Below the pieces are notes generated by a model. It had not been told where the DNA came from. It worked only from the letters and a program-made list of their open reading frames with translations, and did not search any database. A stretch of DNA of 64,000 nt from Parabacteroides faecis (GTDB taxonomy: Bacteria > Bacteroidota > Bacteroidia > Bacteroidales > Tannerellaceae): positions 124,001 to 188,000 of the forward strand of contig NZ_BMPB01000009.1 of the NCBI RefSeq assembly GCF_014647375.1, in the 5' to 3' direction. The translations under genes and the position numbers were made by a program. This document shows, piece after piece, positions 3,102 to 60,449 of the stretch. Each line of letters starts with the position of its first letter. Position 1 is the stretch's first letter.

Positions 3102-3189
3102 AAAACTTTTGTTTATTCAGTACGAAACTAAAGTTTCCCAGGCAAGAAACTTTAGTTTCCTCCTATAGAAACTTTTTATTCGTCCTTAT
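3102..3189. repeat. 22-bp-period array A (core GAAACTWWAGTTTC), 4 units
   Basis: Units start at 3102, 3124, 3146 and 3168, spaced exactly 22 bp apart. Units 2 and 3 have the cores GAAACTAAAGTTTC and GAAACTTTAGTTTC. Each is nearly self-complementary, and the two are reverse complements of each other. Unit 1 begins AAAACTTTTGTTT and unit 4 GAAACTTTTT, both degenerate at the edge. The 8-bp remainder of each unit is not conserved. It lies between divergent genes, about 300 bp from either start codon. Confidence 0.75.
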
Positions 3190-3224
3190 CCCTTTCTCTA
3201 TTGAAAAGCAGAATGGCATATAAA

Positions 3225-3330
3225 GTGGTAGATAACAATAAATATTGTAGATATATTATCATCTACAACCACTGTATAAGAAGCTTGTTTACAAGGAGTC
3301 TATGACATGATTGTAGATGTTGTAGATAGT
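3225..3330. repeat. Cluster of TGTAGAT-type words, including an inverted copy
   Basis: TAGAT words occur at 3229-3233, 3248-3252, 3314-3318 and 3323-3327, with an inverted ATCTA at 3261-3265. Three of the direct copies read TTGTAGAT or TGTAGAT and the inverse reads ATCTACAA. AGTGGTAGAT and ATCTACAACCACT can pair around the segment between them. It could be an operator region or a cruciform. No function is known. Confidence 0.4.
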
Positions 3331-3483
3331 ATAAACTATTTAAATTTCGTTTTTTTGAGCTTTAAAGCAGATTAGATAGGCGTTGTTTTTCGATTAATAT
3401 GATTAGTCTTGCTCTTTATTTCATTAAATAAAAGAAATGTGTACTTTTAGGACTTCATTTATAATCATAAAGGGGAGATAGTT

Positions 3484-4704
3484 ATGAGACGTATTTATTA
3501 TTTGTTGCTGGTTAGCCTGTGTTGCACCAGTTTGTTTGCAAAAACAAAGAAAGCTGTGTATATAATCATTGACGGAGTTCCTGCCGATCAGATCGAGCGG
3601 CTTCATACGCCGGCCATATTCGATATTGCTTCCAGAGGAGCTTATGCGAGGGCTTACACCGGAGGTGAGATAGGCGGATATTCACAGACTGCAACGATCT
3701 CAGCCATCGGTTATACCAATCTGCTGACGGCTACCTGGTTTAATAAACATAACGTAGGGGGTAACTCCGACCTGAAACCCAATTATAACTACTGGACTAT
3801 CTTCCGGATAGCCAAAGAACAACCCAAAGATTACAAAACAGCCATTTATTCCAGCTGGACAGACAATCGTACCGTTTTGATCGGGGAAGGAAAGAAGGAA
3901 ACAAACTATTTGAAAATAGATTATGTAAAGGACGGTTACGATCTCGATACAATCCGCTTCCCGAAGAAGGAAAAAGATTTGCATATTTTCGATATAGACG
4001 AACAAATTTCGAAGGATGCCGCCGAAGGAATCCGTAAAGATGCCCCTGATCTGAGTTGGGTTTATCTGTGGTATACCGACGACGCGGGACATATTGCCGG
4101 AAACGGAGCTTTCTTCGATGAATATGTTCGGAAGGCTGACAACCAGGTTGCTCGTATTTGGGAAGCTGTCAAATATCGTGAAGCTAATTTTGATGAAGAA
4201 TGGATGATCATAGTAACGACCGACCATGGTCGTGGCGAGAATGGTCACGGACACGGAGGGCAATCCGGGCGCGAACGTACTACCTGGATTTCGACCAACG
4301 TTCCGGTAAACAACCATTTCAAGGCGGGCGGTCTGGCGATCACGGATATTGCCCCTTCTATCTGCCGTTACATGGGATTCGAGGTGCCGCAATCAGTCCT
4401 TTGGGAACAGGATGGCATGCCGTTCATCGGTAAAACGGATATTTACGATTTGCAGACTTTACCTTATGATAATATGGTGGAACTCTCCTGGAAATCTTAT
4501 TCGGGAAATGTCCCCGTTACGGTTTATGCCGCTGCCGACAATAAATTCAAGGAGGGAGGGAAAGACGAGTGGATAAAAGTCGCAGAGCTTCCTGCCGGAG
4601 CGACGGAATATACAGTCGATCTGCAAACATTGCCGTCTTCGAAATTCTATAAGTTCGTTGTGCTGTCTCCCGGAAATCATTTAAACCGCTGGTTACTGAA
4701 ATAG
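3484..4704 (+). CDS. Exported type I phosphodiesterase / nucleotide pyrophosphatase (alkaline phosphatase superfamily)
   Basis: A 406-residue protein with a signal peptide (about 1-19, ending SLFAK). It carries the metal-site signature of the alkaline-phosphatase superfamily: YIIIDGV (D30), a candidate nucleophile threonine in GYSQTATIS (about 69-71), YTDDAGH, and TTDHGRGENGHGHGG. This is the nucleotide pyrophosphatase/phosphodiesterase (NPP) layout, a two-zinc enzyme that cleaves phosphodiester or pyrophosphate bonds. About 80 C-terminal residues beyond the catalytic domain look like a small beta module. The sulfatase gene, of the same superfamily, follows 18 nt later, so the two are probably co-transcribed and act outside the cytoplasm. 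The substrate is unknown. Confidence 0.8.
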   Translation: MRRIYYLLLVSLCCTSLFAKTKKAVYIIIDGVPADQIERLHTPAIFDIASRGAYARAYTGGEIGGYSQTATISAIGYTNLLTATWFNKHNVGGNSDLKPNYNYWTIFRIAKEQPKDYKTAIYSSWTDNRTVLIGEGKKETNYLKIDYVKDGYDLDTIRFPKKEKDLHIFDIDEQISKDAAEGIRKDAPDLSWVYLWYTDDAGHIAGNGAFFDEYVRKADNQVARIWEAVKYREANFDEEWMIIVTTDHGRGENGHGHGGQSGRERTTWISTNVPVNNHFKAGGLAITDIAPSICRYMGFEVPQSVLWEQDGMPFIGKTDIYDLQTLPYDNMVELSWKSYSGNVPVTVYAAADNKFKEGGKDEWIKVAELPAGATEYTVDLQTLPSSKFYKFVVLSPGNHLNRWLLK

Positions 4705-4722
4705 AAATATAATATAAGTATT

Positions 4723-6237
4723 ATGAAGAAAACTTTATGTGTATCGAGTTTATTGCTTTTGACCGGACAGCCGATGATTGCGCAGGAACGTCCGAATATA
4801 ATCGTTTTTCTTGTAGATGATATGGGATTGATGGATACCTCTTTGCCTTTCCTTACGGATGCAGAGGGGAATCCGGTCCGTTATCCGTTGAACGATTGGT
4901 ATCAGACACCTAACATGGAGCGCATGGCCCGTCAGGGAATCCGTTTCTCTACTTTTTATGCACAGAGTGTAAGTTCTCCGTCGCGTGCCTCTATTATGAC
5001 CGGACAAAACTCGACCCGGCACAGAACAACCAACTGGATCAACTCCGAAAGTAATAACAAAACCCCTTTCGGACCCGAAGAATGGAACTGGGAAGGCCTG
5101 TCGAAGAGCGATGTCACTTTGCCCCGTGTCCTGCACGATGCCGGATATAAGACGATCCATGTCGGTAAGGCCCATTTCGGATGCCAGAGCAGTGAAGGTG
5201 AAAATCCGCAGAATATCGGTTTCGACGTAAATATCGCAGGCTCTTCGATCGGGCAGCCGGGTAGTTACTATGGTGAGAATGGCTACGGAAATATAAAAGG
5301 GAATAAAAGCCGTGCCGTGCCAGGACTGGAGAAATATCACGGTACGGATGTCTTTCTGAGCGAGGCTTTAACTCTGGAGGCTAACGAACAGATCAATAAG
5401 GCGGTGGGAGAGGAGAAACCTTTCTTCTTATATATGTCTCATTACGCTGTTCACGGTCCGTTTGAAGCCGACAAACGCTTTGCCGCTCATTACGGTTATA
5501 CGGGAAAGCCGAAGGTAGCAGCCGATTTCGCCACCTTGATAGAAGGTATGGATAAATCGCTGGGCGATATTATGGATCATCTGGAAGAACTAGGTATAGC
5601 AGAAAATACCTTGATCATGTTCCTGGGAGACAATGGTTCTGACGCTCCTCTCGGTGATGATAAAGGATATACCTCTTCTGCTCCTTTACGGGGAAAGAAA
5701 GGAACGGAATATGAGGGTGGTGTCCGTGTTCCGTTCATTGCTTGCTGGGGAAAGCCGGATGCACAAAATCCAAATCAAAAGAAATTACCGATAGAAGCAG
5801 GCGCGATCCAGCAGCAATTGGGTACGGTCATGGATCTGTTTCCGACCGTTCTGTCTCTTGCCGGAGCTGACAATCCGAAAGGACATACGATCGATGGTGT
5901 GGACTTGCGTGTTCAGTTTGAAGGGAAAAAGAACGCTACCCGCTCGGAGAAAGTATTGATGCATTTTCCTCACGAACATCGTGGAAGTTATTTCACCACC
6001 TATATCGATGGCGACTGGAAGCTGATTTACTACTATAATCCTGAAAGGCCGGCCGAACCCCGTTACCGTCTATACAACCTGAAGAACGACCCGGGCGAAT
6101 CGCTCGATCTCTCCCTTCGTGACGGCAACCGGGTAAAAGCGATGGTGAAAGCCATGAGTGCCCAGCTTGAAGCAGAAGGGGCGCTTTATCCGGAAGATGC
6201 GGAAGGGAATGTGTTGAAACCATTCTTGCTTTTTTAG
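4723..6237 (+). CDS. Exported S1-family sulfatase (serine-type active site)
   Basis: A 504-residue protein with a signal peptide (about 1-20). It has the sulfatase N-terminal metal motif NIIVFLVDDMG (D32, D33) and the activation motif SSPSRASIMTG. Its first Ser (S84) would be oxidised to formylglycine by the anaerobic maturase anSME, as is known for Bacteroidota Ser-type sulfatases. Other conserved parts are HVGKAHFG, SHYAVHGP and FLGDNGSD, plus a C-terminal subdomain with GDWKLIYYY and YNLKNDPGE. It removes sulfate esters from glycans or other substrates in the periplasm. It is paired with the upstream phosphodiesterase rather than with a SusC/SusD pair, so the target cannot be inferred. Confidence 0.88.
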   Translation: MKKTLCVSSLLLLTGQPMIAQERPNIIVFLVDDMGLMDTSLPFLTDAEGNPVRYPLNDWYQTPNMERMARQGIRFSTFYAQSVSSPSRASIMTGQNSTRHRTTNWINSESNNKTPFGPEEWNWEGLSKSDVTLPRVLHDAGYKTIHVGKAHFGCQSSEGENPQNIGFDVNIAGSSIGQPGSYYGENGYGNIKGNKSRAVPGLEKYHGTDVFLSEALTLEANEQINKAVGEEKPFFLYMSHYAVHGPFEADKRFAAHYGYTGKPKVAADFATLIEGMDKSLGDIMDHLEELGIAENTLIMFLGDNGSDAPLGDDKGYTSSAPLRGKKGTEYEGGVRVPFIACWGKPDAQNPNQKKLPIEAGAIQQQLGTVMDLFPTVLSLAGADNPKGHTIDGVDLRVQFEGKKNATRSEKVLMHFPHEHRGSYFTTYIDGDWKLIYYYNPERPAEPRYRLYNLKNDPGESLDLSLRDGNRVKAMVKAMSAQLEAEGALYPEDAEGNVLKPFLLF

Positions 6238-6266
6238 ATAAAATACTAAGAAAAAGAATCGAAGTA

Positions 6267-6297
6267 TTTGTGGTGTAAATAATTCTCCTTACCTTTG
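6267..6297 (+). promoter_or_regulatory. Promoter of the rpsF-rpsR-rplI operon
   Basis: TTTG at 6267-6270, a 19-nt gap, then TACCTTTG at 6290-6297. This is a textbook Bacteroidota -33/-7 pair. The start codon of rpsF is 42 nt downstream of the -7 element. Confidence 0.8.
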
Positions 6298-6339
6298 CAC
6301 CGCAAATTTTAAGTATTAACAAAAATAAAACAGCGTTTT

Positions 6340-20794: not shown

Positions 20795-21439
20795 ATGGAC
20801 ACCTTACTCCCTTTCGCCCTTTTGTGCTTCACCTCCTTTTTTACACTGACAAACCCGTTGGGCACTATGCCGGTCTTCCTGACCATGACGAACGGAATGA
20901 GTGATGACGAACGTAAAACCATTGTCCGCCGTGCAACGATCGTATCGTTTATAACCTTGATGGTCTTTACTTTCTCCGGCCAGTTCCTCTTCACATTCTT
21001 CGGTATTTCCACAAATGGTTTCCGTATTGCCGGAGGTATTATTATCTTTACCATCGGATTCGATATGCTGCAGGCACGTTATTCCAAAGCAAAACTGAAA
21101 GACGATGAGGTAAAGACCTATGTAAACGACATCTCCGTCACTCCGTTGGCCATCCCTATGTTATGTGGGCCGGGCGCTATTGCCAACGGCATCATGTTGA
21201 TGGACGATGCAGATACATTGATAAAAAAGATACTGCTTATCAGTGTCATAGCATTGGTTTATTTTATTACCTTCCTGATTCTCCGGGCATCTACCCGGCT
21301 GAACAAGTATATGGGTGAGACAGGCAACAACGTGATGATGCGTCTGATGGGCCTTATCCTGATGGTTATTGCTGTGGAATGTTTTGTAAGCGGATTCAAA
21401 CCCATAATGATTGACATACTACAACAAGCTAATTTATGA
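20795..21439 (+). CDS. MarC family integral membrane protein
   Basis: A 214-residue, strongly hydrophobic protein with about six membrane segments. It shows the MarC family pattern: FFTLTNPLGTMPVFLTMT near the N-terminus, GGIIIFTIGFDML in the middle, and VTPLAIPMLCGPGAIANGIM. The family has no firm function; an antibiotic-resistance role was proposed and withdrawn for E. coli MarC. It overlaps the HAD gene by 4 nt (ATGA), so the two are translationally coupled. Confidence 0.88.
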   Translation: MDTLLPFALLCFTSFFTLTNPLGTMPVFLTMTNGMSDDERKTIVRRATIVSFITLMVFTFSGQFLFTFFGISTNGFRIAGGIIIFTIGFDMLQARYSKAKLKDDEVKTYVNDISVTPLAIPMLCGPGAIANGIMLMDDADTLIKKILLISVIALVYFITFLILRASTRLNKYMGETGNNVMMRLMGLILMVIAVECFVSGFKPIMIDILQQANL

Positions 21440-22128
21440 TAGAAGGAATACAGGTCATCGGTTTTGATGCCGATGACACGCTTTGGGTGAATGAAACTTA
21501 TTTCCTGGAGACGGAGCAGAAGCTTCGTCTTTTGTTGGCCCCTTATGTGGATGGGGATACCGTATCGGCAGAGTTGTTCAGGACGGAAAGCAGGAACATG
21601 CCTCTTTATGGCTACGGTGTGAAAGCTTATATCCTTTCTGTTCTGGAAACGGCGATCCGTATTACGGACGGGACAGTCCCGGCAAACGTATTGGAGCAGA
21701 TTCTTCTTTTGGGAAAAGAACAGCTGTCCAAACCAGTAGAACTTCTGGACGGAGTGGAGGAGACGTTGAATGCCCTTGTGGGTCGTTATCGCCTTATTGT
21801 GGTAACGAAAGGCGACCTGCTCGATCAGGAGCAAAAGTTACGCCGTTCGGGAATCGAACATCTTTTCCATCATGTGGAGATTATGAGCGATAAGACCGGC
21901 AGGGAATATCGTTTGTTATTGAAACATCTCGACATACAACCAGAAGAGTTCTTGATGATAGGGAACTCTGTCCGTTCAGATATCCTTCCTCCGTTGGAAC
22001 TGGGAAGCTATGCCATCCACGTACCTTATCAAACGACCTGGGCGCACGAAAAGGTAGATGAGCCGGTTGTCAGCCCTCGTTTTTTTACCGTTGATTCTTT
22101 ATGGGATGTGATATCCTTGCTACCCTAA
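21436..22128 (+). CDS. HAD-superfamily hydrolase
   Basis: A 230-residue protein with the HAD motifs in order: VIGFDADDTLW (motif I, D-x-D), IVVTKGD (motif II position, Thr), a lysine in MSDKTG (motif III) and MIGNSVRSDILP (motif IV). An alpha-helical cap lies between motifs I and II (about 20-100). It is likely a phosphatase of a small metabolite; the substrate is not readable. It is coupled to the MarC gene by a 4-nt overlap and convergent with the next operon. Confidence 0.85.
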   Translation: MIEGIQVIGFDADDTLWVNETYFLETEQKLRLLLAPYVDGDTVSAELFRTESRNMPLYGYGVKAYILSVLETAIRITDGTVPANVLEQILLLGKEQLSKPVELLDGVEETLNALVGRYRLIVVTKGDLLDQEQKLRRSGIEHLFHHVEIMSDKTGREYRLLLKHLDIQPEEFLMIGNSVRSDILPPLELGSYAIHVPYQTTWAHEKVDEPVVSPRFFTVDSLWDVISLLP

Positions 22129-22192: not shown

Positions 22193-22302
22193 GAGTCTGT
22201 AAGGTGTGCTTTGCGTAAATGTAACACTATAGTTTCATAAATGTAAGGATAGCCTTACATTTATGAATTCTGCATCTTACTTTTATAAAGGTTAGGAGAA
22301 AA
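22193..22302. repeat. 22-bp-period array B (core ATAAATGTAAGG), 5 units
   Basis: Units start at 22193, 22215, 22237, 22259 and 22281. Columns 5-10 of the unit read ATGTAA or close variants in all five, with T at column 6 invariant. Unit 3 continues as GTAAGG, ATAG, CCTTAC, a perfect 6-bp stem. CATAAATGTAAGG at 22236-22248 pairs with CCTTACATTTATG at 22253-22265. It lies in the 221-nt gap between convergent genes, so it is not a promoter region. Confidence 0.6.
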
Positions 22303-22349: not shown

Positions 22350-23378
22350 CTAAAGGTCGGTGAACTTCTTTTTCCCTTTCAGGTAGAAAGAGAGAATAAG
22401 GCTGTTGCGCATCAGTTCCGGGATAGTAGCCAGTGTTGTTTTAGCAAGGTTCTCTTTCCTTTTGGCAACATAATCCGGCTTCATTTCGAAGAATGCTTTC
22501 CGAGCTTCGTATACCGCTTTGGCATTCTGAATGTATCCGCATAGCAGAAATTTGGTGGCCGCAATATAATCCAGAAAGAAACGCGCACGCATCACATGCT
22601 TCAGGTCTTTTTCGGAAAGATTCTTGTAAATCATCAGCAGGTTGTTTCGGAAATTGAGGAAGGTCTTCCGGGGACTTTCCACCTGTAAGGTAGCACCTCC
22701 AACATGATAAACAACCGATCCGGGTGTACATACCAGTCGATACCCGCGGGAACGCAGGCGCCAGCACATATCGATCTCTTCCTGATGGGCGAAGAAACCT
22801 GCATCCAGCCCGCCTATCTCCTTATAAATAGCTGTACGGATGAAAAGACAGGCACCCGTAGCCCAAAGGATATCGGCAGGTGCGTCGTACTGGCCATTAT
22901 CTTTTTCTACGATATGTAGTACGCGGCCCCGGCAGTAAGGATAGCCGTAAATGTCCATATAACCTCCGGCAGCCCCGGCATATTCGAAATATTCCTTATT
23001 ACGCTGTGCCCTGATCTTGGGTTGGGCGGCAACTATTGTCGTGTCGGCTTCGAGAGCAGACAATGGAGCATCGAGCCAGCCCGGTGTAACTTCGACATCA
23101 CTGTTCAGCAGAACGGTATATTCATTGTCTATCTGCTTGATTGCCTGATTGTATCCTTCGGCGAAGCCGTAATTCTTATCGAGCTGAATGATCCGTACGG
23201 ACGGGAACTTTTCTTTCAGCATAGCAATGGAGGCATCCGTAGAACCGTTGTCGGCAACGACTACTTCAGATAGTTCGGAAGGACTGTAATCGATGACCGA
23301 CGAAAGGAATTTCTCCATCAGCTTGCAACCGTTCCAGTTCAATATAACAATAGCGACTTTTTTTGAATTACTATGCAT
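22350..23378 (-). CDS. Family 2 glycosyltransferase (rhamnosyltransferase-like)
   Basis: A 342-residue protein with the GT-A start VAIVILNWNG, VVVADNGSTD and a DxD-type metal motif in VLLNSDVEVTPGW. Then follow WATGACLFIRTAIYKEIGGLD and the acceptor-side HQEEIDMCWRLRSRGY. This is the WcaE/rhamnosyltransferase-like GT2 layout, adding a sugar to a surface glycan with a nucleotide-sugar donor. It overlaps the upstream acyltransferase gene by 8 nt and is last in a three-gene run. Confidence 0.88.
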   Translation of the reverse strand: MHSNSKKVAIVILNWNGCKLMEKFLSSVIDYSPSELSEVVVADNGSTDASIAMLKEKFPSVRIIQLDKNYGFAEGYNQAIKQIDNEYTVLLNSDVEVTPGWLDAPLSALEADTTIVAAQPKIRAQRNKEYFEYAGAAGGYMDIYGYPYCRGRVLHIVEKDNGQYDAPADILWATGACLFIRTAIYKEIGGLDAGFFAHQEEIDMCWRLRSRGYRLVCTPGSVVYHVGGATLQVESPRKTFLNFRNNLLMIYKNLSEKDLKHVMRARFFLDYIAATKFLLCGYIQNAKAVYEARKAFFEMKPDYVAKRKENLAKTTLATIPELMRNSLILSFYLKGKKKFTDL

Positions 23379-36155: not shown

Positions 36156-37169
36156 TTATTTGTTTACAGAGACAAGGTGTTTCCTGAAGCCTTCTGAGTA
36201 ATCTGTGCGGAAATCCCCATTCTCGTCGGCATAAATGAACAGATATTCCAGTTCCGGATGCTGTTGCAGGATTTTGTGGGCTTCTTCCCGGCCCATGGCC
36301 ATGAAAGCTGTTGCGTAGGCGTCGGCTGTCATGCAATCGGCAGCAACGATGGTGGCACTGAGGATCGGTTGACCTGCCGGATAACCGGTTCGGGGATCGA
36401 TGGTGTGGGCGTATTTCTTTCCGTCTTTGATATAGAAATTACGATAGTCACCGGAAGTGGCAAGGCCATGACGACCACATAACTGTACGATTTCCTGTAA
36501 CTCCTGGTTGACACCCATCGGATCGTCGGTAGGTTTGGTGATACCGATACGCCAACACTCTCCTTTAGGGTTGACTCCTTTGACTGTCGTTTCACCGCCT
36601 ATGTCGATCATGTAATTTTCAATACCTTTACTATCGAACAGCCGGGCAATGACCTCGCAACTGCAACCGTCTCCCAATGAAGAACAATTCAGCAGGATGC
36701 GTGGATCATCCTTGATTACTTTCTTTCCTTCCAAACGTATTTTCTGATATCCGACAAAAGCACGTATGCTATCTATCATCGCAGGTGTGACACTGTCATT
36801 TTTGCTGAACCCGAATCCCCAAAGATTGATGAAAGGGGCACAAGTAATATCATAAATGCCATTGGTTTGTTCGGATACTTCCTTTGCTTTGTTGAATACC
36901 TCCACAAAAAGATCGTCCACTTCTATGTCTTTATTCCTGTTGACCTGAGAAATGACTGAGGTAGAATCGAACGGGTTGAGGCAATGGTAATAACGTTGAA
37001 GTTCTGCATGGATCTCATCTTCCAGCGACTCGGTATAACAGAATTGAATCTGATAAGGAGTGTGAAGTATTCCTGCTACTTTAAAATACTGTTCAGGTTG
37101 TTTGCAACCGATTAATAAGGAGATGATGAAAAAAGACAGACCAGCTGGAAGTAAGTAGGAATGTTTCAT
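36156..37169 (-). CDS. apbE: FAD:protein FMN transferase (ApbE), lipoprotein
   Basis: A 337-residue protein with a lipobox LLIGCKQ (Cys 22). ApbE features include NPFDSTSVISQVNR, YDITCAPFINLWGFG, NCSSLGDGCSCEVIA, MIDIGGETTVKG and HTIDPRTGYPAGQPILSATIVAADCMTADAYAT (quoted in part as HTIDPRTGYP and DCMTADAYAT). It attaches FMN to Thr residues of exported redox proteins such as RnfG or NqrB/C, so it supports respiratory complexes. No nqr or rnf genes lie nearby. It is separated from argF' by 208 nt that hold array C. Confidence 0.93.
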   Translation of the reverse strand: MKHSYLLPAGLSFFIISLLIGCKQPEQYFKVAGILHTPYQIQFCYTESLEDEIHAELQRYYHCLNPFDSTSVISQVNRNKDIEVDDLFVEVFNKAKEVSEQTNGIYDITCAPFINLWGFGFSKNDSVTPAMIDSIRAFVGYQKIRLEGKKVIKDDPRILLNCSSLGDGCSCEVIARLFDSKGIENYMIDIGGETTVKGVNPKGECWRIGITKPTDDPMGVNQELQEIVQLCGRHGLATSGDYRNFYIKDGKKYAHTIDPRTGYPAGQPILSATIVAADCMTADAYATAFMAMGREEAHKILQQHPELEYLFIYADENGDFRTDYSEGFRKHLVSVNK

Positions 37170-37275: not shown

Positions 37276-37363
37276 CAGTTGTGAAACACAAGAAACTCAT
37301 CTGTGAAACAGACGGAATCCAACTGTGATATGAAAGAAATCCAGTTGTGAAACGAAATAGAGA
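37276..37363. repeat. 22-bp-period array C (core CAGTTGTGAAAC), 4 units
   Basis: Units start at 37276, 37298, 37320 and 37342, exactly 22 bp apart. Their cores read CAGTTGTGAAAC, CATCTGTGAAAC, CAACTGTGATAT and CAGTTGTGAAAC. Unit 1 with its left flank gives the palindrome TCACAGTTGTGA, and CATATCACAGTTG upstream pairs with CAACTGTGATATG in unit 3. The 10-bp remainder is A-rich (ACAAGAAACT, GAAAGAAATC). It sits downstream of argF' and upstream of apbE. Confidence 0.75.
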
Positions 37364-37377: not shown

Positions 37378-38331
37378 TTATAATCCCATCAATATCTTTT
37401 TCAGTACCGTCTGTGCCGAAATTTCGCGATTGGCGGCTTCCGGGATCACGATGCTTTGCGGGCTTTCGATCACGTCGTCGGTAACGATCATGTTACGGCG
37501 AACCGGCAGACAGTGCATGAAATAAGCATTGTTGGTCAGTGCCATCTTTTCCGTATCGACAGTCCAGGCACGATCTTTACTTAATACCTGACCGTAGTTA
37601 GGATCGGTATAAGCGGCCCAGTTTTTGGCATAGATAAAGTCTGCACCTTCGAAGGCTTTCTTCTGATCGTATTCCACACGGGCATTGCCTACGAACTTAG
37701 GATCCAGTTCGTAGCCCTCCGGATGGGTAATCACAAATTCATAATCCGTCGCATTCATCCATTCGGCAAAACTGTTGGGGACAGCCTGCGGAAGAGACTT
37801 GGGATGCGGAGCCCAAGTCATAACCACCTTCGGACGGGCTGTTTTCTTATATTCCTCGATTGTGATCAGGTCGGCAAAACTTTGTAGCGGATGGCGGGTA
37901 GCCGCTTCCATACTGAATACCGGACGACCGGAGTACTTGATAAATTCAGAGATGATCTTTTCGTTGTAATCGTCTTCCTTGTTTTCGAAGCGGGCGAAAG
38001 AACGCACACCGATGATGTCGCAGTAGCAACCCATGACCGGAATAGCTTCCAGCAGGTGTTCCGGTTTGTCTCCATCCATGATGACGCCGCGTTCGGTTTC
38101 CAGTTTCCACGCACCCTGGTTCACGTCGAGAACCATCGTGTTCATCCCCAGATTCATCGCAGCCTTCTGGGTAGAGAGGCGCGTACGCAGGCTGGAGTTG
38201 AAGAATATCATTAACAGCGTCTTGTTCTTGCCAAGTTCTGTGAACTGAAAGCGGTCTTTCTTGATCTCGAAAGCTTCGTTAAGCGCCTGCTTCAGGTCGC
38301 CTAAATCCTGTACACAAGTGAAATGTCTCAT
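37378..38331 (-). CDS. argF': N-succinylornithine carbamoyltransferase
   Basis: A 317-residue transcarbamylase with carbamoyl-phosphate site SSLRTRLS (47-54), HPLQSFAD and HCLPVRRN. Position 90 is Pro (DGDKPEHL). In the characterised Bacteroides fragilis enzyme this Pro gives preference for N-succinyl-L-ornithine over N-acetyl-ornithine, and a P90E change switches it. So this enzyme probably makes N-succinylcitrulline in the succinylated arginine route of Bacteroidetes. It is last in the run with proB and proA, 34 nt behind proA. Confidence 0.92.
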   Translation of the reverse strand: MRHFTCVQDLGDLKQALNEAFEIKKDRFQFTELGKNKTLLMIFFNSSLRTRLSTQKAAMNLGMNTMVLDVNQGAWKLETERGVIMDGDKPEHLLEAIPVMGCYCDIIGVRSFARFENKEDDYNEKIISEFIKYSGRPVFSMEAATRHPLQSFADLITIEEYKKTARPKVVMTWAPHPKSLPQAVPNSFAEWMNATDYEFVITHPEGYELDPKFVGNARVEYDQKKAFEGADFIYAKNWAAYTDPNYGQVLSKDRAWTVDTEKMALTNNAYFMHCLPVRRNMIVTDDVIESPQSIVIPEAANREISAQTVLKKILMGL

Positions 38332-44101: not shown

Positions 44102-44174
44102 AGCGGAAGACGGGACTCAAACCCGCGACCCTCAGCTTGGAAGGCTAATGCTCTATCAACTGAGCTACTTCCGC
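44102..44174 (-). tRNA. tRNA-Gly (anticodon TCC)
   Basis: The minus strand folds as a 73-nt cloverleaf: acceptor GCGGAAG pairs with CTTCCGC, D-loop AGCTCAGTTGATAGAGC, anticodon loop CTTCCAA (anticodon TCC), and T-arm CGGGTTTGAGTCCCG. The 3' CCA is not encoded. It is downstream of tRNA-Tyr by 26 nt in the same transcript. Confidence 0.95.
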
Positions 44175-44200: not shown

Positions 44201-44283
44201 TGGGCAGTGATGGATTCGAACCACCGAAGTCGAAAGACAGCTGAGTTACAGTCAGCCCCATTTGGCCACTCTGGTAACTGCCC
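44201..44283 (-). tRNA. tRNA-Tyr (anticodon GTA)
   Basis: An 83-nt type II tRNA on the minus strand: acceptor GGGCAGT pairs with ACTGCCC, discriminator A, anticodon stem-loop CTGACTGTAACTCAG (anticodon GTA), a long variable arm typical of Tyr, and T-arm GGTTCGAATCC. CCA is not encoded. Confidence 0.95.
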
Positions 44284-49833: not shown

Positions 49834-51909
49834 TCAATTGCTATTTGCTTTCGGTTCAGCCTGTTTAATGCCGTTTCGTATAAGCAGGGCATCGATGGTC
49901 GGCTCCTGTCCGCGGAAGCGTTTATACAATATAGCCGGGTCTTCTGTTCCTCCTTTCGACAGGACGTTTTCACGGAATGATCGGGCTGTTTCACGGTTGA
50001 ATATCCCAGTTGCCTTGAAAACGGAAAAAGCGTCTGCATCCAGCACTTCTGCCCATTTATATCCGTAATATCCGGCTGCATAGCCTCCGGAGAAGATATG
50101 ACCGAAACTGCTGCTCATCAATGTCCCGGATACTTCCGGAACAATAACGGTCTGTGCCCATGCCTGCTTCTCGAAAGCGATAACATCTCCATCAAATGGT
50201 TCTGTCCGGGTATGCCATGCCATATCCAGCATACCGAAACTCAGTTGGCGGCAACAGAAATATCCTGTGTTGAAATTGGCGGCATCGACTAGCTTGCGGA
50301 TAAGCTCCTGAGGTATCTTTTCTCCTGTCTCGTAATGTACGGCGATCTGATCCAGGAATTCTTTTTCCGTCAACCAGTTTTCCATAAGTTGGGAAGGAAG
50401 TTCTACAAAGTCGCGATACACGTTCGTACCGGACAGGCTGGCATATTTCCCTTTGGCGAACATGCCGTGCAGCGCATGTCCGAACTCATGCAGGAGGGTA
50501 TTCACTTCGTCGAAAGTCAGTAAGGACGGTTTGGTTTTTGTCGGACGCGTAAAGTTCATAACAATGATGATCTGTGGACGGCTGTCGTTACCATCGGCTT
50601 CGTTGTATTGCTCTTTGATACTGTTCATCCAGGCTCCCGATTGTTTACCGTCGCGTGGATGGAAGTCTGTATACAGGATAGAAAGAAATTTACCGTCGGC
50701 ATCATATACTTCGTAAGCATCGACTTCCGGATGGTAAACAGGAATTTCTTTGTTTTCCCTGAATGTGATTCCGTACAATTGTGTTGCAAGTCCGAAGACA
50801 CCGTTTTTAACATTATTCAGTTCGAAGTACGGACGCGTCATCTCGTCATTTACATTGAAACGGATGTCCTTCAGTTTTTCGGAATAATAACTCCAGTCCC
50901 AGGGCATGACGGTGATATTCTCTTTTTCAATTCCCATCGCGAAGCCCTGAACGGCATTGTATTCATTGATAGCAACCGGTTTATAAGCTTTTAGTAATTG
51001 TTCCAACAGCCTATATACGTTGGTCGGTGTTTTAGCCATCGTTCGTTTGAGTGAATATTCTGCATAGGTGTTGTGTCCCATGAGCCGGGCTATTTCCAAC
51101 CGGATGTTGACGATCCGGCGGATAATCTCTTTGTTATCATATTCATCCCCTTTATTTCCGATGCTCATATATTCCCGGTACATAGCTTCACGCAGAGGGC
51201 GTAGAGCCGAATAGCGCATGAAGGGAATATAACTGGGGGCAGACAGGTTGAACAGCCAACCATCTTTCCCTTTTTCCTTTGCCCTGTGTGCTGCCGCTTC
51301 GCGGATGCTTTCGGGAAGTCCGGTCAGATCTTTTTCTTCTGTGAGGAGCAGTTCGTATCTGTTTTTGTCTTTCAATGCATTCTGGTCGAAGGTTAGCGTC
51401 AAGGTACTTAGCTCTGAACTGAGTTTACGATATTTCTCCTTGTCTTCCGGACTTAAATTTGCTCCGCGTACGCAGAATGATTCGAACGTATCTTCCAGTA
51501 ATTTGGCGTCTTCCGTTGATAAGCTTAGCTGTTCCTTTTGTCCGTAAATATTTTTAATACGTGCGAACAGTTTCTCGTTGAGAAATATATTATTGGAACT
51601 TTCCGATAATTTCGGGGAGACTTGTTGTGAAAGATCCATCATTTCATCATTAGCTTCTGCATTAAGCACATTGAAGAATACTGAACTTACTTTTTCAAGT
51701 AGCTTGCCACTCCTTTCCAATGCAACGATTGTGTTTTCGAAAGTAGCAGGTTGTTCGTTTTCTGCTATCTCCTGAATTTCTTTTTCCAGTTGTTTGATTC
51801 CTTCATCGAATGCAGGTTCGTAATGCTCGATCTTTATGTCGTTGAAAGGAGGTGTTGCAAACGGAGTATTATATTGTTGAAAGAATGGATTATTTACTGT
51901 TTGTGTCAT
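49834..51909 (-). CDS. dcp: M3-family zinc peptidase (peptidyl-dipeptidase Dcp-like)
   Basis: A 691-residue protein with the M3 zinc site LLHEFGHALHGMF (HExxH) and its downstream glutamate region YRDFVELPSQLMENW. No signal peptide is visible, so a cytoplasmic site is likely. The rest is the helical thimet-oligopeptidase fold (for instance ATFENTIVALERSG near the start and FSGGYAAGYYGYKWAEVL near the end). It cleaves dipeptides from the C-terminus of short peptides or degrades oligopeptides. Dcp versus PrlC/OpdA is chosen on length and general similarity. Confidence 0.88.
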   Translation of the reverse strand: MTQTVNNPFFQQYNTPFATPPFNDIKIEHYEPAFDEGIKQLEKEIQEIAENEQPATFENTIVALERSGKLLEKVSSVFFNVLNAEANDEMMDLSQQVSPKLSESSNNIFLNEKLFARIKNIYGQKEQLSLSTEDAKLLEDTFESFCVRGANLSPEDKEKYRKLSSELSTLTLTFDQNALKDKNRYELLLTEEKDLTGLPESIREAAAHRAKEKGKDGWLFNLSAPSYIPFMRYSALRPLREAMYREYMSIGNKGDEYDNKEIIRRIVNIRLEIARLMGHNTYAEYSLKRTMAKTPTNVYRLLEQLLKAYKPVAINEYNAVQGFAMGIEKENITVMPWDWSYYSEKLKDIRFNVNDEMTRPYFELNNVKNGVFGLATQLYGITFRENKEIPVYHPEVDAYEVYDADGKFLSILYTDFHPRDGKQSGAWMNSIKEQYNEADGNDSRPQIIIVMNFTRPTKTKPSLLTFDEVNTLLHEFGHALHGMFAKGKYASLSGTNVYRDFVELPSQLMENWLTEKEFLDQIAVHYETGEKIPQELIRKLVDAANFNTGYFCCRQLSFGMLDMAWHTRTEPFDGDVIAFEKQAWAQTVIVPEVSGTLMSSSFGHIFSGGYAAGYYGYKWAEVLDADAFSVFKATGIFNRETARSFRENVLSKGGTEDPAILYKRFRGQEPTIDALLIRNGIKQAEPKANSN

Positions 51910-52028: not shown

Positions 52029-52138
52029 TTCGTTATCTGTTTGCCTATCGATAATTGTGGGCAGACTTGTTCATAATTATCGACAAGTTTACCTATAATT
52101 GTCGACAGGTTTACCGACAATTATCGACAAGCAATTAC
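52029..52138. repeat. 22-bp-period array D (core ATAATTATCGACAAG), 5 units
   Basis: Units start at 52029, 52051, 52073, 52095 and 52117. Units 3 to 5 read ATAATTATCGACAAG, ATAATTGTCGACAGG and ACAATTATCGACAAG. Units 1 and 2 are degenerate but in phase (TTCGTTATC, ATAATTGTGGG). The remainder of units 3 and 4 begins TTTACC. Partial dyads such as GTCGAC are present. It lies 120 nt upstream of the M3 peptidase start and about 280 nt upstream of the glycogen-cluster promoter. Confidence 0.75.
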
Positions 52139-52419: not shown

Positions 52420-52451
52420 TTTGTTTTTTTAGTTTTTAAGTGATACATTTG
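52420..52451 (+). promoter_or_regulatory. Promoter of the glycogen cluster
   Basis: TTTG at 52420-52423, exactly 20 nt, then TACATTTG at 52444-52451. Transcription would start near 52458, so translation cannot begin at the upstream in-frame codon at 52440 and the ATG at 52509 is preferred. Confidence 0.8.
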
Positions 52452-52508
52452 GTCTGGATATCATATCATTTTAATTATATAAGCATAAACTTAAAACCAA
52501 ATACAAAT

Positions 52509-54443
52509 ATGAGTTATCTTAAATTTGACAAAACAGTAATGATAAACCTGGAGGAGTCGTTGACTCGTGAAGTACTCCGAACCAACCGGACGGGGGCTTA
52601 TCATTGTACGACTGTTGTGGATTGTAATACAAGAAAATACCACGGATTACTCGTTATGCCTGTGCCCGAGATAGACGACGATAACCATGTGCTGCTTTCT
52701 TCACTGGATGAAACAGTGATCCAACATGGTGCGGAGTTCAACCTGGGTTTACATAAATACCAAGGGGATAACTTTAGCCCTAAGGGACATAAATATATCC
52801 GCGAGTATAGTTCAGATACAGTTCCACGTACACTCTATCGGGTTGGAGGGGTTATTTTTTCAAAGGAAAAAGTATTTTCTTTGTATGAAAACCGCATCAT
52901 GATCAAGTACACTCTTGAAGACGCCCATTCTGCAACCACCCTCCGTTTCCGCCCTTTCCTTGCTTTTCGTAGCGTAAAATCACTAACCCAGGCTAACGGG
53001 AATGTGAATCAGTCGTATACAGAAGTACCCAACGGGATAAAGACTTGCATGTATCATGGATATCCGGAATTATATATGCAGTTCAATAAGAAAGTGAAAT
53101 TTGTTTATGAACCTTATTGGTATAATGGGATTGAATACCCGAAAGAACAGGAGAGAGGTTATCCGTATAAGGAAGACCTGTATGTCCCCGGTTATTTTGA
53201 AATTCCTATCAAAAAGGGAGAATCAATCATATTCAGTGCCGGTGATAGTCCGGTTGCCACTACGCGTTTGAAGAGTTTGTATGAAAACGAGGTGAATGCC
53301 CGTACGCCGCGTACCAGCTTCTTTAACTGTCTGAAGAACTCGGCACAGCAATTTTATTTCCGTCCGAAAGAAGACGATGCTTATCTGCTGGCCGGCTATC
53401 CGTGGTTCAAAGTGCGTGCAAGAGACTTGTTTGTGGCACTTCCCGGTTGTACCCTGTCTATTGCCGACCCTGTGCGTTTTGAAAAGATTATGCACACAGC
53501 CATGCCGGCTGTAAGGGCTTATATGGCTGAAAATAAACCGGATGCAGTTATTCGTGAAATAGATGAACCAGATGTGTTCCTGTGGGCTATCTGGGCTATA
53601 CAACAGTATGCCAGAGAGGCAGGTATCGAACGTGCCAAAGAACTGTATGGAGAATTTGTGAATGAGATATTAGAGTTTATCTCCGGGCAGAAACATCCGG
53701 ATATGAAGGTGATGGAAAATGGCCTGCTATTTGCCAATGGCCGCGATAAAGCGATTACCTGGATGAACTCGACCATAAACGGTAAACCTGTTGTACCTCG
53801 TTCCGGTTATATAGTAGAGTTCAATGCCCTGTGGTATAACGCTCTTTGTTTCTATACAGAATTGATGGGCGGCGTGCCAATCGAAAAATACGATAAGCTG
53901 ATCAAGGCAATGGATATTTCTTTCCAGGAAACATTCGTGAATGGATATAACTATCTGTTTGATTCGGTGAATGGTTCTATTGTGGATTGGAGTGTACGTC
54001 CTAATATGATCTTTGCTGTTTCTGTTCCTTATTCTCCGCTGACGAGAGTTCAGAAACGCAGCGTCGTAGATATCGTTACGAAAGAACTGTTGACACCTAA
54101 AGGACTGCGTTCGCTTAGTCCGAAGAGTGAAGGCTACAGACCTTATTATGTCGGTCCGCAATACGAGCGTGATCAGGCTTACCATCAAGGTACGGCATGG
54201 CCCTGGTTATTGGGAGCGTATCTGGAAGCTTATCTTCGGGTATTCGGAAAGAGCGGTGTCTCTTTTGCCGAACGTATGTTGATAAGTATGGAGGATGAAA
54301 TGTCATTGCATTGCATCGGTACTATACCGGAGTTGTTCGATGGTAACCCACCGTTCACCGGTCGTGGTGCTATTTCGTTTGCAATGAATGTGGCCGCTAT
54401 TCTCAGGGTAGTGGATTTATTGAAGAAGTATAACGCCGAATAA
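52509..54443 (+). CDS. Glycogen debranching enzyme (amylo-alpha-1,6-glucosidase, GH133-like)
   Basis: Starting at ATG 52509 gives 644 residues. The N-terminal domain has LTREVLRTNRTGAYHCTTVV, TRKYHGLLVMPVP and SSLDETVIQHG. The (alpha/alpha)6 catalytic part has YLLAGYPWFKVRARDLFVALPG (quoted as AGYPWFKVRARDLFVALPG), VMENGLLFANGRDKAITWM, PRSGYIVEFNALWYNAL, and DQAYHQGTAWPWLLGAYLEA. This is the archaeal/Bacteroidota GDE type that removes alpha-1,6 branch stubs of glycogen. It heads a three-gene run with a GT4 and a GH57 protein. Confidence 0.92.
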   Translation: MSYLKFDKTVMINLEESLTREVLRTNRTGAYHCTTVVDCNTRKYHGLLVMPVPEIDDDNHVLLSSLDETVIQHGAEFNLGLHKYQGDNFSPKGHKYIREYSSDTVPRTLYRVGGVIFSKEKVFSLYENRIMIKYTLEDAHSATTLRFRPFLAFRSVKSLTQANGNVNQSYTEVPNGIKTCMYHGYPELYMQFNKKVKFVYEPYWYNGIEYPKEQERGYPYKEDLYVPGYFEIPIKKGESIIFSAGDSPVATTRLKSLYENEVNARTPRTSFFNCLKNSAQQFYFRPKEDDAYLLAGYPWFKVRARDLFVALPGCTLSIADPVRFEKIMHTAMPAVRAYMAENKPDAVIREIDEPDVFLWAIWAIQQYAREAGIERAKELYGEFVNEILEFISGQKHPDMKVMENGLLFANGRDKAITWMNSTINGKPVVPRSGYIVEFNALWYNALCFYTELMGGVPIEKYDKLIKAMDISFQETFVNGYNYLFDSVNGSIVDWSVRPNMIFAVSVPYSPLTRVQKRSVVDIVTKELLTPKGLRSLSPKSEGYRPYYVGPQYERDQAYHQGTAWPWLLGAYLEAYLRVFGKSGVSFAERMLISMEDEMSLHCIGTIPELFDGNPPFTGRGAISFAMNVAAILRVVDLLKKYNAE

Positions 54444-57098: not shown

Positions 57099-57119
57099 GT
57101 ATAAGTTAGTTTAAGCAAT

Positions 57120-57157: not shown

Positions 57158-57174
57158 ATATGATATAAAGTTTA

Positions 57175-58557: not shown

Positions 58558-58568
58558 TTTTCTCTCAC

Positions 58569-59387
58569 TTATTTAGAATCTAATACGACATCGTAAAATT
58601 CGTTGAATGCATCCATATAAGTTTCCGGCGATTGATAAGGAAGGAACGGAGTGTCCTTTTTAGTGGCGATATAATCCAGGATATCCTGATTGATCGTTTC
58701 ACTACCTTGTATCACGCCATCTGCCATATCGATAGCCAGTTTAGTCAGGCCGACAAAGCTGGTATCAGCTTTGATGCCTTTCAGGTCACTGTCTTTTGCA
58801 CCGTCAGTTTTCAGCTTGTGGGCCAATTCTTTTCTTAACGGTGAATTAAAGTCATCATTATAAATAGAGTAGACTATTTTTGCATTTTTAAGACATGGAT
58901 CGTCTGCATACATTCTTTTTATATATAATGCAGTCAGTGCAGACATCCATCCGTGACAATGTATCACATCCGGGATCCAGCGAAGTTTCTTCACTGTTTC
59001 CAATACACCACGTACATAGAAGATAGAACGGTCGTCGTTATCTTCATAATCATTCCCATTCTCATCGCTAACAGTATGTTTACGCTGGAAGAAGTCTTCA
59101 TTATCAATGAAGTACACCTGCATGCGTGCGGCCTGAATGGATGCTACCTTGATGATCAGCGGGTGATCCGTATCATCAATGATAAGGTTCATACCTGACA
59201 AGCGGATTACTTCGTGCAACTGATTGCGTCGCTCGTTGATATTTCCGAATTTAGGCATGAAAGTTCTGATCTCGCGACCACGCTCCTGAATGCCTTGCGG
59301 CAGATTCCTGCATATCGTTGCAATCTCAGATTCGGGAAGGTAGGGTGTTATTTCTTGGGCTATAAACAAGATTTTTTTTGCATCCAT
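58569..59387 (-). CDS. One-domain glycogen/starch-synthase-like protein (GT5 N-terminal part)
   Basis: Starting at ATG 59387 gives 272 residues; the upstream frame adds 17 residues before the typical start DAKKILFIAQEITPYLPES. It matches the N-terminal Rossmann domain of GT5 starch synthase (ILFIAQEITPYLPESEIATI, RGREIRTFMPKFGNINERR, WIPDVIHCHGWMSALTAL). There is no second (C-terminal) GT-B domain holding the E-x7-E donor site, so catalysis alone is doubtful. It may be a non-catalytic glycogen-binding protein. A TATCTTTG element lies upstream. It is divergent from panC. Confidence 0.82.
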   Translation of the reverse strand: MDAKKILFIAQEITPYLPESEIATICRNLPQGIQERGREIRTFMPKFGNINERRNQLHEVIRLSGMNLIIDDTDHPLIIKVASIQAARMQVYFIDNEDFFQRKHTVSDENGNDYEDNDDRSIFYVRGVLETVKKLRWIPDVIHCHGWMSALTALYIKRMYADDPCLKNAKIVYSIYNDDFNSPLRKELAHKLKTDGAKDSDLKGIKADTSFVGLTKLAIDMADGVIQGSETINQDILDYIATKKDTPFLPYQSPETYMDAFNEFYDVVLDSK

Positions 59388-59415
59388 TCTGTAAACTAGT
59401 TTTATAAAGACGGCA

Positions 59416-59423
59416 CAAAGATA
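59416..59423 (-). promoter_or_regulatory. -7 element of the GT5-like/DUF4270 pair
   Basis: CAAAGATA on the plus strand is TATCTTTG on the minus strand, 29 nt before ATG 59387. It supports the shorter start. Confidence 0.5.
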
Positions 59424-59488
59424 ATAAATTTCTTTCATTTACGGTAATTATTTATTTGCTTTGCACCGTCAATAAGCATCTAAAAAAG

Positions 59489-60331
59489 ATGAAAATAGTA
59501 AACAGCATCCAAGAATTGAAGCGTTATCTTGCCGAAGAAAGGCAGCATAACAGGAAAATAGGCTTTGTTCCCACCATGGGAGCATTACATAACGGACACC
59601 TGAGCCTGGTTAAGCGTTGTGTAGAAGAGAACGATGTATGCGTTGTCAGCGTCTTCGTTAATCCGACCCAGTTTAATGACAAAAATGACCTTGCCACTTA
59701 TCCCCGTACACTGGATAATGACTGTGCATTATTGGAACCGGCCGGTTGTAATTATGTATTTGCTCCTACAGAAGCAGAGATGTATCCCGAACCGGATACA
59801 CGGACTTTTGACTTTGGAACCGTATCGGCAGTGATGGAAGGTGCTCGCCGTCCGGGACACTTTAACGGTGTTGCCCAGATCGTCAGCAAACTCTTTTATG
59901 CCGTGGAACCGGATAATGCTTATTTCGGGGAAAAGGATTTCCAGCAGATCGCCGTGATCCGTGCGATGGTAAAACAGTTGAACATTCCGGTAAAAATTAA
60001 TGCCTGCCCGATTCTCCGGGAGGATGACGGACTGGCTTTAAGTAGCCGTAATGTCCGATTAACGTCGGAACAACGTCAAAAAGCGCCCCTGATTGCACGT
60101 ACGTTAAAAGAAAGTACTAACTTTGCAGCCGGAAAAAGCGTACAGGAGGTGATCGAATTTGTTGTGAATACAATCAATGCGGATCCTGTTATGCGTGTTG
60201 AATACTACGAAATCGTAGACGGATACACGATGGAATCGATTAAAAACTGGTCGGACGCCGATTATGTAGTGGGCTGTATCACCGTTTATTGCGGTGAAGT
60301 TCGGTTGATCGATAATGTAAAATATAAATAG
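59489..60331 (+). CDS. panC: Pantothenate synthetase (pantoate-beta-alanine ligase)
   Basis: Starting at ATG 59489 gives 280 residues. [17 protein letters not shown] has the HxGH ATP site, [39 protein letters not shown] (quoted as [17 protein letters not shown] and YFGEKDFQQ) and [13 protein letters not shown] follow. It joins pantoate and beta-alanine with ATP to give pantothenate, the CoA precursor. panD, which makes the beta-alanine, follows 150 nt later, with array E between. Confidence 0.95.
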
Positions 60332-60361
60332 CTGGTAAATAAGGAGATATATCTGTTCGGA

Positions 60362-60449
60362 AAAAGTCAGGACTTTTGATTATAAAAGTCCCTTATTTTG
60401 AAGACAAAAGTCCCTTATTTTAAATGCAAAAGACCCTACTTTTGTTTGA
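60362..60449. repeat. 22-bp-period array E (core AAAAGTCCCTTATTTT), 4 units
   Basis: Units start at 60362, 60384, 60406 and 60428. Cores are AAAAGTCAGGACTTTT (a perfect 7-bp dyad with an AG centre), AAAAGTCCCTTATTTT twice, and AAAAGACCCTACTTTT. The last 6 bp of each unit differ (GATTAT, GAAGAC, AAATGC, GTTTGA). The array fills most of the panC-panD gap and so would be present in any panCD transcript as a series of weak hairpins. Confidence 0.8.

Follow-up and report, generated by a model that had tools for sequence, protein, structure and literature searches.

What are five intergenic arrays with one shared spacing and five different words, and what might read them? The arrays lie in a 64,000-nucleotide stretch of the Parabacteroides faecis genome, hereafter the window, and none is assigned a strand. 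Array 1 (3102..3189; word GAAACTWWAGTTTC, period 22 bp) occupies the divergent gap between an alpha/beta hydrolase gene (1789-2796, minus strand) and a phosphodiesterase-like gene (3484-4704, plus strand), both named from Pfam. Array 2 (22193..22302; word ATAAATGTAAGG with inverted units) lies in the convergent gap between a HAD hydrolase gene (21436-22128, plus strand) and a glycosyltransferase gene (22350-23378, minus strand). Array 3 (37276..37363; word TTTCACAG / CAGTTGTGAAAC) is positioned between an ApbE-family gene (36156-37169) and a carbamoyltransferase gene (37378-38331), both on the minus strand. Array 4 (52029..52138; word ATAATTATCGACAAG) is located in the divergent gap between a peptidase M3 gene (49834-51909, minus strand) and a glycogen-debranching-type gene (52440-54443, plus strand). 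Array 5 (60362..60449; word AAAAGTCCCTTATTTT) separates panC (59456-60331) from panD (60485-60835), which are named from Pfam and are both on the plus strand. Each unit is composed of a diverged core of 12-16 bp and a variable stretch of 6-10 bp.

The positions given in an earlier note, made from the window sequence alone, are confirmed. The 22-bp direct-unit scores of arrays 1-5 (67, 69, 70, 80 and 71) all exceed the maxima from 200 Markov shuffles of each array's own gap (55, 67, 55, 69 and 59), calculated for a single placement with the choice of phase uncorrected. The top lag within 10-40 is 22 in all five gaps, and the best-lag score was equalled, at any lag, by 1, 11, 0, 0 and 0 of 300 shuffled gaps, respectively. 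Array 2, partly composed of inverted units, is the weakest of the five by these statistics.

Arrays with a 22-bp period occur in intergenic DNA throughout the genome. The excess of lag 22 over shuffled sequence, which the earlier note had named as the check to make, is present: 29 segments score at least 14 in 1,264,000 bases of the same genome, 28 of them intergenic, against none in shuffled sequence. Lag 44 yields 13 segments in the same 1.264 Mb, and the remaining lags from 12 to 45 yield 0-8 each. The same test on other species (80 titled loci, 1.36 Mb, from Bacteroidales with some other Bacteroidota and related records) identified 18 segments at lag 22, 16 at lag 21 and 8 at lag 23, together with 13 at lag 14 and 11 at lag 42. 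Chance as the origin of the arrays is ruled out by shuffled sequence, both genome-wide and in the arrays' own gaps.

Similar arrays precede genes of the HU-HIG family (PF18291: an HU domain fused to a winged helix-turn-helix (wHTH), Ig or glycine-rich motif), a Pfam name that covers domains only. The paper defining the family is reportedly Burroughs et al. 2017. Upstream dyad arrays with a period of 21-23 bp were found at 85 of 94 HU-wHTH genes in the genus, a non-redundant set with at least 200 bp of upstream sequence available; the other nine have no array at the threshold. In three genomes, arrays are borne by 29 of 33 HU-wHTH genes and five of nine short HU genes. The corresponding counts are 4/29 for Gly-tail HU-HIG paralogs, those in hand from the genome of the window (G000) and from G027, and 41/815 for G000 control genes, which still include the sampled HU genes; the HU-wHTH genes differ from these two classes with p=4e-9 and 2e-30, respectively. 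The leader array comprises about four dyad units and follows a Bacteroides-type -7 box, ahead of the start codon, with a median span of 82 bp and a median distance of 69 bp from its end to the ATG. In 53/85 leaders an exact TAnnTTTG box lies no more than 50 bp ahead of the array, and in 4/85 it lies after the array; with one mismatch permitted, the counts are 77/85 and 26/85. The leader word is private to each paralog group. The same layout is found at 10 of 13 loci fetched from plasmid and phage collections, including P. distasonis WP_005858123.1. A strict promoter-array-gene filter was applied to 1.26 Mb to see whether other kinds of gene share this geometry; just two genes passed, one of them HU and the other sigma-70-like, and the idea of a further gene class of this kind was dropped.

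HU-HIG proteins of about 200 residues contain an HU domain and a winged helix, and some of about 130 residues lack the winged helix. Since genes for the short proteins also have arrays, the winged helix cannot be the sole reader of the word. The protein of L320, an HU-wHTH gene of G000, matches PF18291 with 121.6 bits (cut-off 26.2, E=2.6e-35), and 32 of the 34 PF18291 matches in G000 exceed the cut-off. Residues 139-194 of L320 give weak helix-turn-helix matches, below the cut-off, in agreement with the Pfam family name. Word similarity correlates with winged-helix identity at a partial rho of 0.23 and with HU identity at 0.12. Mobility of the HU gene itself was considered and is disfavoured: in seven of eight G000/G046 ortholog pairs, homology continues beyond the promoter-array-gene cassette, on one side or both, by at least several hundred bases, which suggests that these HU genes have mostly been inherited where they stand.

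Arrays 2, 3 and 4 of the window share words with HU-gene arrays. Array 3 matches the array upstream of L320 (G000 C1:768146-768754) with 84% identity over 87 bp (E=6e-21). The word of array 4 is that of the arrays upstream of the HU-wHTH genes L331 (G000 C1:389385), L338 (G046) and L435 (G030; E=1.7e-15). The word of array 2 is found upstream of L336 (G046; E=1.6e-9), L432 (G030; 8e-7) and L352 (G027), the weakest of the three window matches; the upstream region of their G000 relative L335, whose own array is under the lag threshold, is matched with E=7e-4. Arrays 1 and 5 have no match among the HU-gene arrays compared. Gap arrays of other genomes also match HU genes of the same genome: G038 with its L417 (E=1e-23), G027 with its L355 (1e-23), and G030 with its L430 as well as with L355 and L328 (2e-20 to 9e-19). 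Gap arrays of G027 (array-3 gap), G001, G022, G002 and G021 (panC-panD) match none of the HU-gene arrays compared.

Of 39 sampled arrays away from HU genes, 13 match an HU-gene array, and the matches keep the period: two 21-bp arrays pair with L329 and two 23-bp arrays with L343. The other 26 match no HU-gene array. Some of these are low-complexity or lag-20/24 repeats, and the recurring GAAACT, TGCCA and TTTAAAACG families are neither. The genes flanking the unmatched arrays, judged by eye from their first residues, include no common DNA-binding protein. Families without an identified cognate include GAAACT, TGCCA, TTTAAAACG and AAAAGTCC. Dispersed copies in G000 follow the presence of the paralog group: six of nine present groups have them versus one of 27 absent groups (p=3e-4 (2.8e-4)) after a correction by hand, in which one group with a sub-threshold G000 member was counted as present and absent groups matching only arrays also matched by a present group were left uncounted. 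The uncorrected counts are 5/8 versus 5/28 (p=0.024). The single exclusive match of an absent group, at C1:678897, is made only by G022_L464, and its word resembles that of the present L333 group.

We hypothesize that each array family is a set of DNA binding sites for one HU-HIG paralog, bound cooperatively and probably autoregulatory at the paralog's own genes; the sequence comparisons make this the probable explanation. HU-HIG dimers would bind half-sites that alternate in ~11-bp steps along one face of the helix, and adjacent dimers would touch, so that the HU module would set the period while the winged helix and HU would jointly read the word. By binding in the first ~100 bases to be transcribed, the protein would repress its own HU gene, which would amount to autoregulation. 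The dispersed arrays would be chromosomal landing or nucleation sites for the cognate protein, possibly spread as copies of HU-gene leaders, and some may outlast their protein and become orphans. That about one third of the scattered arrays share HU-gene words suggests parallel protein-and-address pairs on the chromosome. Protein-filament sites are the best supported of three guesses offered in the earlier note: the dyads are those of DNA and three of the five words precede HU-HIG genes, from which we infer binding.

The cores had been thought peculiar to one locus each, but the words group into families with further members elsewhere in the genome and in related genomes. The array-3 family has five matches in G000 (array 3 included), 13 in G002 and ten in G021, yet neither of the two HU-wHTH genes of G021 bears that word. 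Array 4 belongs to a family common to the equivalent gap in G000, G027, G030 and G046. Array 1 is related (E about 1e-6) to an array at G000 C1:323552 that is part of the dispersed GAAACT family, and in a search from another copy of that family array 1 failed to reach E 0.001. The gap orthologous to that of array 1 in G030 and G027 contains a different 22-bp array, with the word TTTGAGCATGCTC, which matches their HU-wHTH genes L430 and L355, respectively. A single gap can bear different words in different species. The second guess, locus-tagging, finds no support in its literal sense, as one word serves many loci and one gap differs in word between species. A co-occupancy statistic (p=1e-6) was discarded as inflated: array 4 was counted three times in a small sample.

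The dispersed arrays could instead be selfish MITE- or minisatellite-like repeats whose spread serves no function, an idea put forward for BrickBuilt-type elements, with the HU genes merely having acquired copies. The copies of a family share chiefly the array and little flank, homology mostly ending near the array, and words switch in gaps between species. The array-3 copies of G002 have longer shared flanks that, by eye, include a degenerate HU-gene start. The panC-panD gap contains four units in G000, three in G004 and none in the sisters G030, G046 and G027; this presence and absence is clean, displays no clear TIR by eye, and fits insertion or deletion alike. Nevertheless, we regard selfish spread as unlikely. 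Accidental acquisition does not give same-place arrays with group-specific words at 85/94 HU-wHTH genes, it leaves the period matching and the scarcity upstream of Gly-tail HU paralogs unaccounted for, and the genome has one match to a Y1 transposase, the family searched systematically. The third guess, decaying minisatellites, similarly fits the unit-number changes and losses at panC-panD but leaves the arrays at HU-wHTH genes unexplained.

BrickBuilt is described as a minisatellite-MITE of Porphyromonas gingivalis with a 23-nt tandem repeat and 19 intergenic copies, forming one family without spacers between repeats and with a leader and a tail that end in inverted repeats (PMC4596501). A table in the same paper lists BrickBuilt_14 beside PGN_0872, 'DNA-binding protein (PF00216)', of the HU family (PMC4596501). 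By description, BrickBuilt shares with our arrays the order Bacteroidales, a multicopy intergenic distribution and a tandem repeat whose length (23 nt) is close to two turns of the helix, and the neighboring HU-family gene brings it closer than the earlier note had allowed. Instead of a single 23-nt spacerless unit, the window arrays have period 22, variable bases and differing words. The arrays here also differ in that a genus has many words, each unit joins a core to variable bases, and there is a systematic tie to HU-HIG genes.

Each word could instead define the regulon of an HU-type transcription factor, with the dispersed arrays as target promoters. The HU-gene arrays do occupy an operator-like position, with an exact -7 box ahead of the array in 53/85. 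One dispersed array with the L325 word is located 16 nt after a -7 box and 214 bp upstream of a gene that we take, from its sequence, to be sigma-70-like. However, none of the 15 HU-matched dispersed arrays has an exact -7 box; with one mismatch, five have it before the array and six after. These copies occur in either orientation, with a codirectional gene downstream in 8/15. Dispersed arrays track gap length and not promoters, without context preference (p=0.57), and they occur in convergent gaps, where the GAAACT family is over-represented (10/26 places, p=0.005; the 26 places are among 30 loci listed and some are orthologous pairs). With neither context bias nor exact -7 boxes, the promoter-operator reading of the dispersed arrays was rejected, and ordinary operators as an account of the whole system are distinctly improbable.

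The position of HU-gene arrays in the inferred 5' leader, and dyads that could form hairpins, would suit RNA-level elements such as attenuators, terminators or mRNA-stability elements. At the best axis, the dyads are 68% Watson-Crick paired versus 43% in random windows. Mismatches in the sense strand are G-T in 209 cases versus A-C in 199 (p=0.66), and 244 versus 221 in a second count (p=0.31); the lack of G-U bias favours DNA over RNA. Several dyads are nearly loop-free, the dispersed copies lie in both orientations, and Rfam at the gathering threshold finds two tRNAs in the window and no match at any array, which makes RNA elements very unlikely. A second dyad axis half a period away in 71/82 arrays is expected of any tandem dyad array and is not separate evidence. 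REP/BIME-like arrays mobilised by a RAYT (Y1 transposase) would also be palindromic, dispersed, intergenic and in some cases 3' of genes, but many unrelated words with a fixed period against a single Y1_Tnp (PF01797) match in the genome make them scarcely credible.

The binding-site explanation can be compared with known systems. The putative cognate proteins are HU-HIG members, and we found no published link between HU-HIG and cognate arrays in open-licence papers. The closest solved relatives of L331 by sequence are IHF alpha and HU (1ihf, E=0.0016). IHF reads one consensus genome-wide, whereas here each of many paralogs seems to combine an additional winged helix with a tandem word of its own. 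ParB-parS, MatP-matS and Noc likewise pair a protein, putative in our case, with dispersed cognate chromosomal sites. Each of those systems has one protein and one word, and its sites are not 22-bp tandem dyads; here a large genome is proposed to have some ten or more such pairs in parallel. REP/BIME are dispersed intergenic palindromic arrays, like those described here, which differ in having many words and a fixed 22-bp period. CRISPR arrays, which are accompanied by cas genes, have near-identical repeats of ~23-47 bp and unique spacers of similar length, unlike the diverged 12-16 bp cores and 6-10 bp variable parts. The earlier note set the arrays apart from a normal CRISPR, REP, MITE or terminator, a reasonable judgement on the whole system, with MITE-like spread as a possible qualification.

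HU-type proteins have been known chiefly as nucleoid proteins that bind non-specifically, and the open-licence papers searched offered no explanation of why these genomes have so many HU-HIG genes. We tentatively speculate, going beyond the binding-site hypothesis, that ~10-13 HU-HIG paralogs per large genome may each polymerise with a two-turn period on a private word at many intergenic arrays and sense their own level via the leader array. Gaps would change word with the HU repertoire, and arrays would mark segments for different HU filaments, a possible multiplexed, sequence-coded chromatin in Bacteroidales. The private arrays at most HU-wHTH genes and their scattered words would make each paralog's targets predictable from sequence alone, and the pairing of array and word makes the role of HU-HIG paralogs testable. 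Should the pairs prove orthogonal, they would also supply a ready-made kit of DNA-binding parts for use in gut Bacteroidales.

In the genus Parabacteroides, genes for HU-HIG proteins (Pfam PF18291) recurrently follow a promoter and a short tandem array, the array words (core sequences) are specific to groups of these genes, and copies with the same word and period are dispersed elsewhere. The five 22-bp arrays of the P. faecis window described in an earlier note (arrays 1–5, at 3102-3189, 22193-22302, 37276-37363, 52029-52138 and 60362-60449) are all present, and each exceeds shuffled controls, array 2 by the least. PanD encoded in the window shares 89–91% identity with two Parabacteroides records, in line with that genus. 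An Rfam scan of the window at the gathering threshold finds tandem tRNA genes at 44102-44174 and 44201-44283 on the minus strand, and nothing else.

The excess of the 22-bp lag over shuffled sequence, on which the earlier note had staked its claim, is borne out in a 1,264,000-base sample of this genome, comprising the window and stretches of contigs C1 and C5. Lag 22 yields 29 self-match segments scoring at least 14, of which 28 are intergenic, versus 0 in shuffled sequence. There are 13 segments at lag 44, 8 at lag 14, 4 each at lags 21 and 23, and 0–4 at each remaining lag from 12 to 45; the shuffled control has none except at lag 28 (2). The same scan of 80 titled loci from other species returns 18 segments at lag 22, 16 at 21, 8 at 23, 13 at 14, and 11 at 42. 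A separate, strongly dispersed element repeats about 33 bp (AGTTGACAGTTGACAAG...) at C5:157476 and about 20 further places on C1 and C5; it has a 7/14/21-bp sub-periodicity and may account for some of the lag-14 and lag-21 counts of P. faecis. In P. faecis, a lower threshold with lags 20–24 gives 44 segments, 41 of which avoid predicted genes. Divergent gaps contain 16 of these, codirectional gaps 12 and 6, and convergent gaps 7, a distribution close to that expected from gap lengths (p=0.57).

The words, held in the earlier note to be locus-specific, instead form families with copies recurring in P. faecis and its relatives. The array-3 family has five matches in P. faecis (array 3 counted), 13 in G002, 10 in G021, two in G046, and one each in G030 and G027, all genomes of the genus, and none in four others searched. 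The array-4 word is matched in three of 21 genomes searched (P. faecis, G002 and G004). For the GAAACT word, which is related to that of array 1, there are 15 matches in G046, 12 in G027, 11 in P. faecis, three in G029 and two in G021, strand duplicates included. The 30 GAAACT loci returned represent 26 separate places, some with short flanking frames and some forming orthologous pairs; 10 of the 26 are in convergent gaps, versus the 16% that gap lengths predict (p=0.005). Within P. faecis, homology among family members is mostly confined to the array, with little flank.

An array-3 copy at C1:768791-768872 directly precedes the gene for a 203-aa HU-HIG protein, which matches PF18291 at 121.6 bits and, weakly, helix-turn-helix domains at its C-terminus. 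Two other paralogs, found by tblastn of the sample, are also preceded by arrays, of the array-4 and array-2 families. In P. faecis, G046 and G027, an array with a period of 20–24 lies within 220 bp of the start of 29/33 genes combining an HU domain with a winged helix (HU-wHTH), 5/9 short HU genes lacking the winged helix, and 1/2 other HU genes. The same holds for 4/29 Gly-tail paralogs, sampled in P. faecis and G027, and for 41/815 genes of the P. faecis sample. The Gly-tail C-termini read DRPEIE in 10/11 proteins sampled from P. faecis and DDRPVIE in 17/18 from G027, as if the tag had evolved in concert within each genome.

A genus-wide search lists 132 matches, spread over 31 of the 39 genomes, short and split genes counted. 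Of the HU-wHTH genes sampled, 94 are non-redundant and have sufficient upstream sequence; 85 of these have an upstream array with a period of 21–23 scoring at least 10. Over 101 rows, 7 of them duplicates, the lag is 22 in 79, 21 in 10, 23 in two, and 15 in one. Rounded array spans correspond to four units in 56 of the 85, three in 19 and two in eight, and the array ends a median of 69 bp before the ATG. In 53/85 an exact TAnnTTTG box, which we take to be the Bacteroides -7 motif, precedes the array by no more than 50 bp, and in 4/85 one follows it within that distance; the commonest position is about 16 nt before the array. The same layout is present in 10 of 13 loci from plasmid and phage collections (the 13 come from 10 of 14 matched plasmid and three of five matched phage records), including records of Parabacteroides distasonis, Bacteroides finegoldii and Phocaeicola massiliensis; L510, L511 and L516 are the three loci without it. 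In a Bacteroides timonensis record, a 22-bp array likewise accompanies a short HU-like gene.

Thirteen of 39 non-HU arrays in the P. faecis sample (42 rows less three at HU genes) match some HU-gene array of the genus, including arrays 2, 3 and 4, and 26, arrays 1 and 5 among them, match none. The period is shared as well: both 21-bp dispersed arrays match L329 and its relatives, where the HU-gene array also repeats every 21 bp, and both 23-bp ones match the HU gene L343, whose array has a 23-bp period. Among 36 paralog groups, dispersed P. faecis copies occur for 6/9 groups present in that genome, versus 1/27 absent groups with a copy unexplained by a present group (p=2.8e-4), after hand corrections that moved a sub-threshold group to present and left uncounted absent groups matching only arrays explained by a present one; the uncorrected table gives 5/8 versus 5/28 (p=0.024).

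The dispersed arrays do not resemble operators, because an exact -7 box is found at 0/15 matched ones. The array at C5:316077 carries the word of the HU gene L325. It follows a -7 box by 16 nt and lies 214 bp ahead of the start of a sigma-70-like gene (C5:315305-315863), the sole non-HU gene in 1.26 Mb to pass the box-array-gene filter and a possible direct target. Array-3 copies in G002 (L292, L298, L304, L307 and others) have common left flanks and, judged by eye, an apparent degenerate HU-wHTH gene start, and look like remnants of a promoter-array-gene cassette. This apparent start suggests that at least some dispersed arrays spread as copies of an HU leader.

Conservation in orthologous gaps, which the earlier note had proposed to compare, holds for array 4, the exception, with one family in all four species compared; at the gaps of arrays 1, 3 and 5 the word differs between genomes, and some genomes have no array at the array-5 gap. 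The array-1 gap of G030 and G027 contains TTTGAGC arrays matching those genomes' own HU genes (L430/L355), whose paralog group has no member in P. faecis. The array-3 gap, 3' of a carbamoyltransferase gene, has a flagged segment in seven of 30 genomes, one AT-rich (G005), and its words differ among P. faecis, G027, G038, G001, G022 and G033. The G038 array matches that genome's own HU gene (E=1e-23); for the G027, G001 and G022 arrays there is no HU-gene array match. The panC-panD gap contains the array-5 word in P. faecis and G004, GAAAC-type arrays in G002, G021 and G029, and no array in G030, G046 and G027.

Pairing across the best dyad axis of 82 HU-gene arrays is 68% Watson-Crick, versus 43% in random windows handled alike. 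G-T and A-C mismatches are balanced (209/199 and 244/221), which is not what RNA hairpins would be expected to give. In 71/82 there is another axis, offset by half a period (11 bp in 60, 10.5 in nine, 11.5 in two), as expected of any tandem dyad array; with axes so spaced, the half-sites appear to switch orientation every ~11 bp. Among pairs of the 85 genes, word similarity is correlated with protein identity: rho is 0.29 (partial 0.23) for the winged helix and 0.22 (partial 0.12) for the HU domain. Only the order of these values matters, because gene pairs are not independent. Since short HU genes bear arrays, we suggest that the HU part alone can suffice to read the word.

BrickBuilt, a 23-nt intergenic repeat of P. 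gingivalis, has 19 copies. One of them, BrickBuilt_14, is tabulated with PGN_0871 on one side and, on the other, PGN_0872, a DNA-binding protein of the HU family (PF00216) (PMC4596501). This position fits the pattern of arrays at HU genes and is not discussed in the part of that text concerned. No prior report tying HU-HIG proteins to arrays was found in the open-licence PMC literature searched.

We propose that HU-HIG proteins bind the arrays cooperatively with two-turn spacing, and that the array in front of an HU gene would mediate autorepression of that gene. The dispersed arrays could be either DNA organisers or passive copies; under the proposed mechanism, they would be chromosomal nucleation sites.
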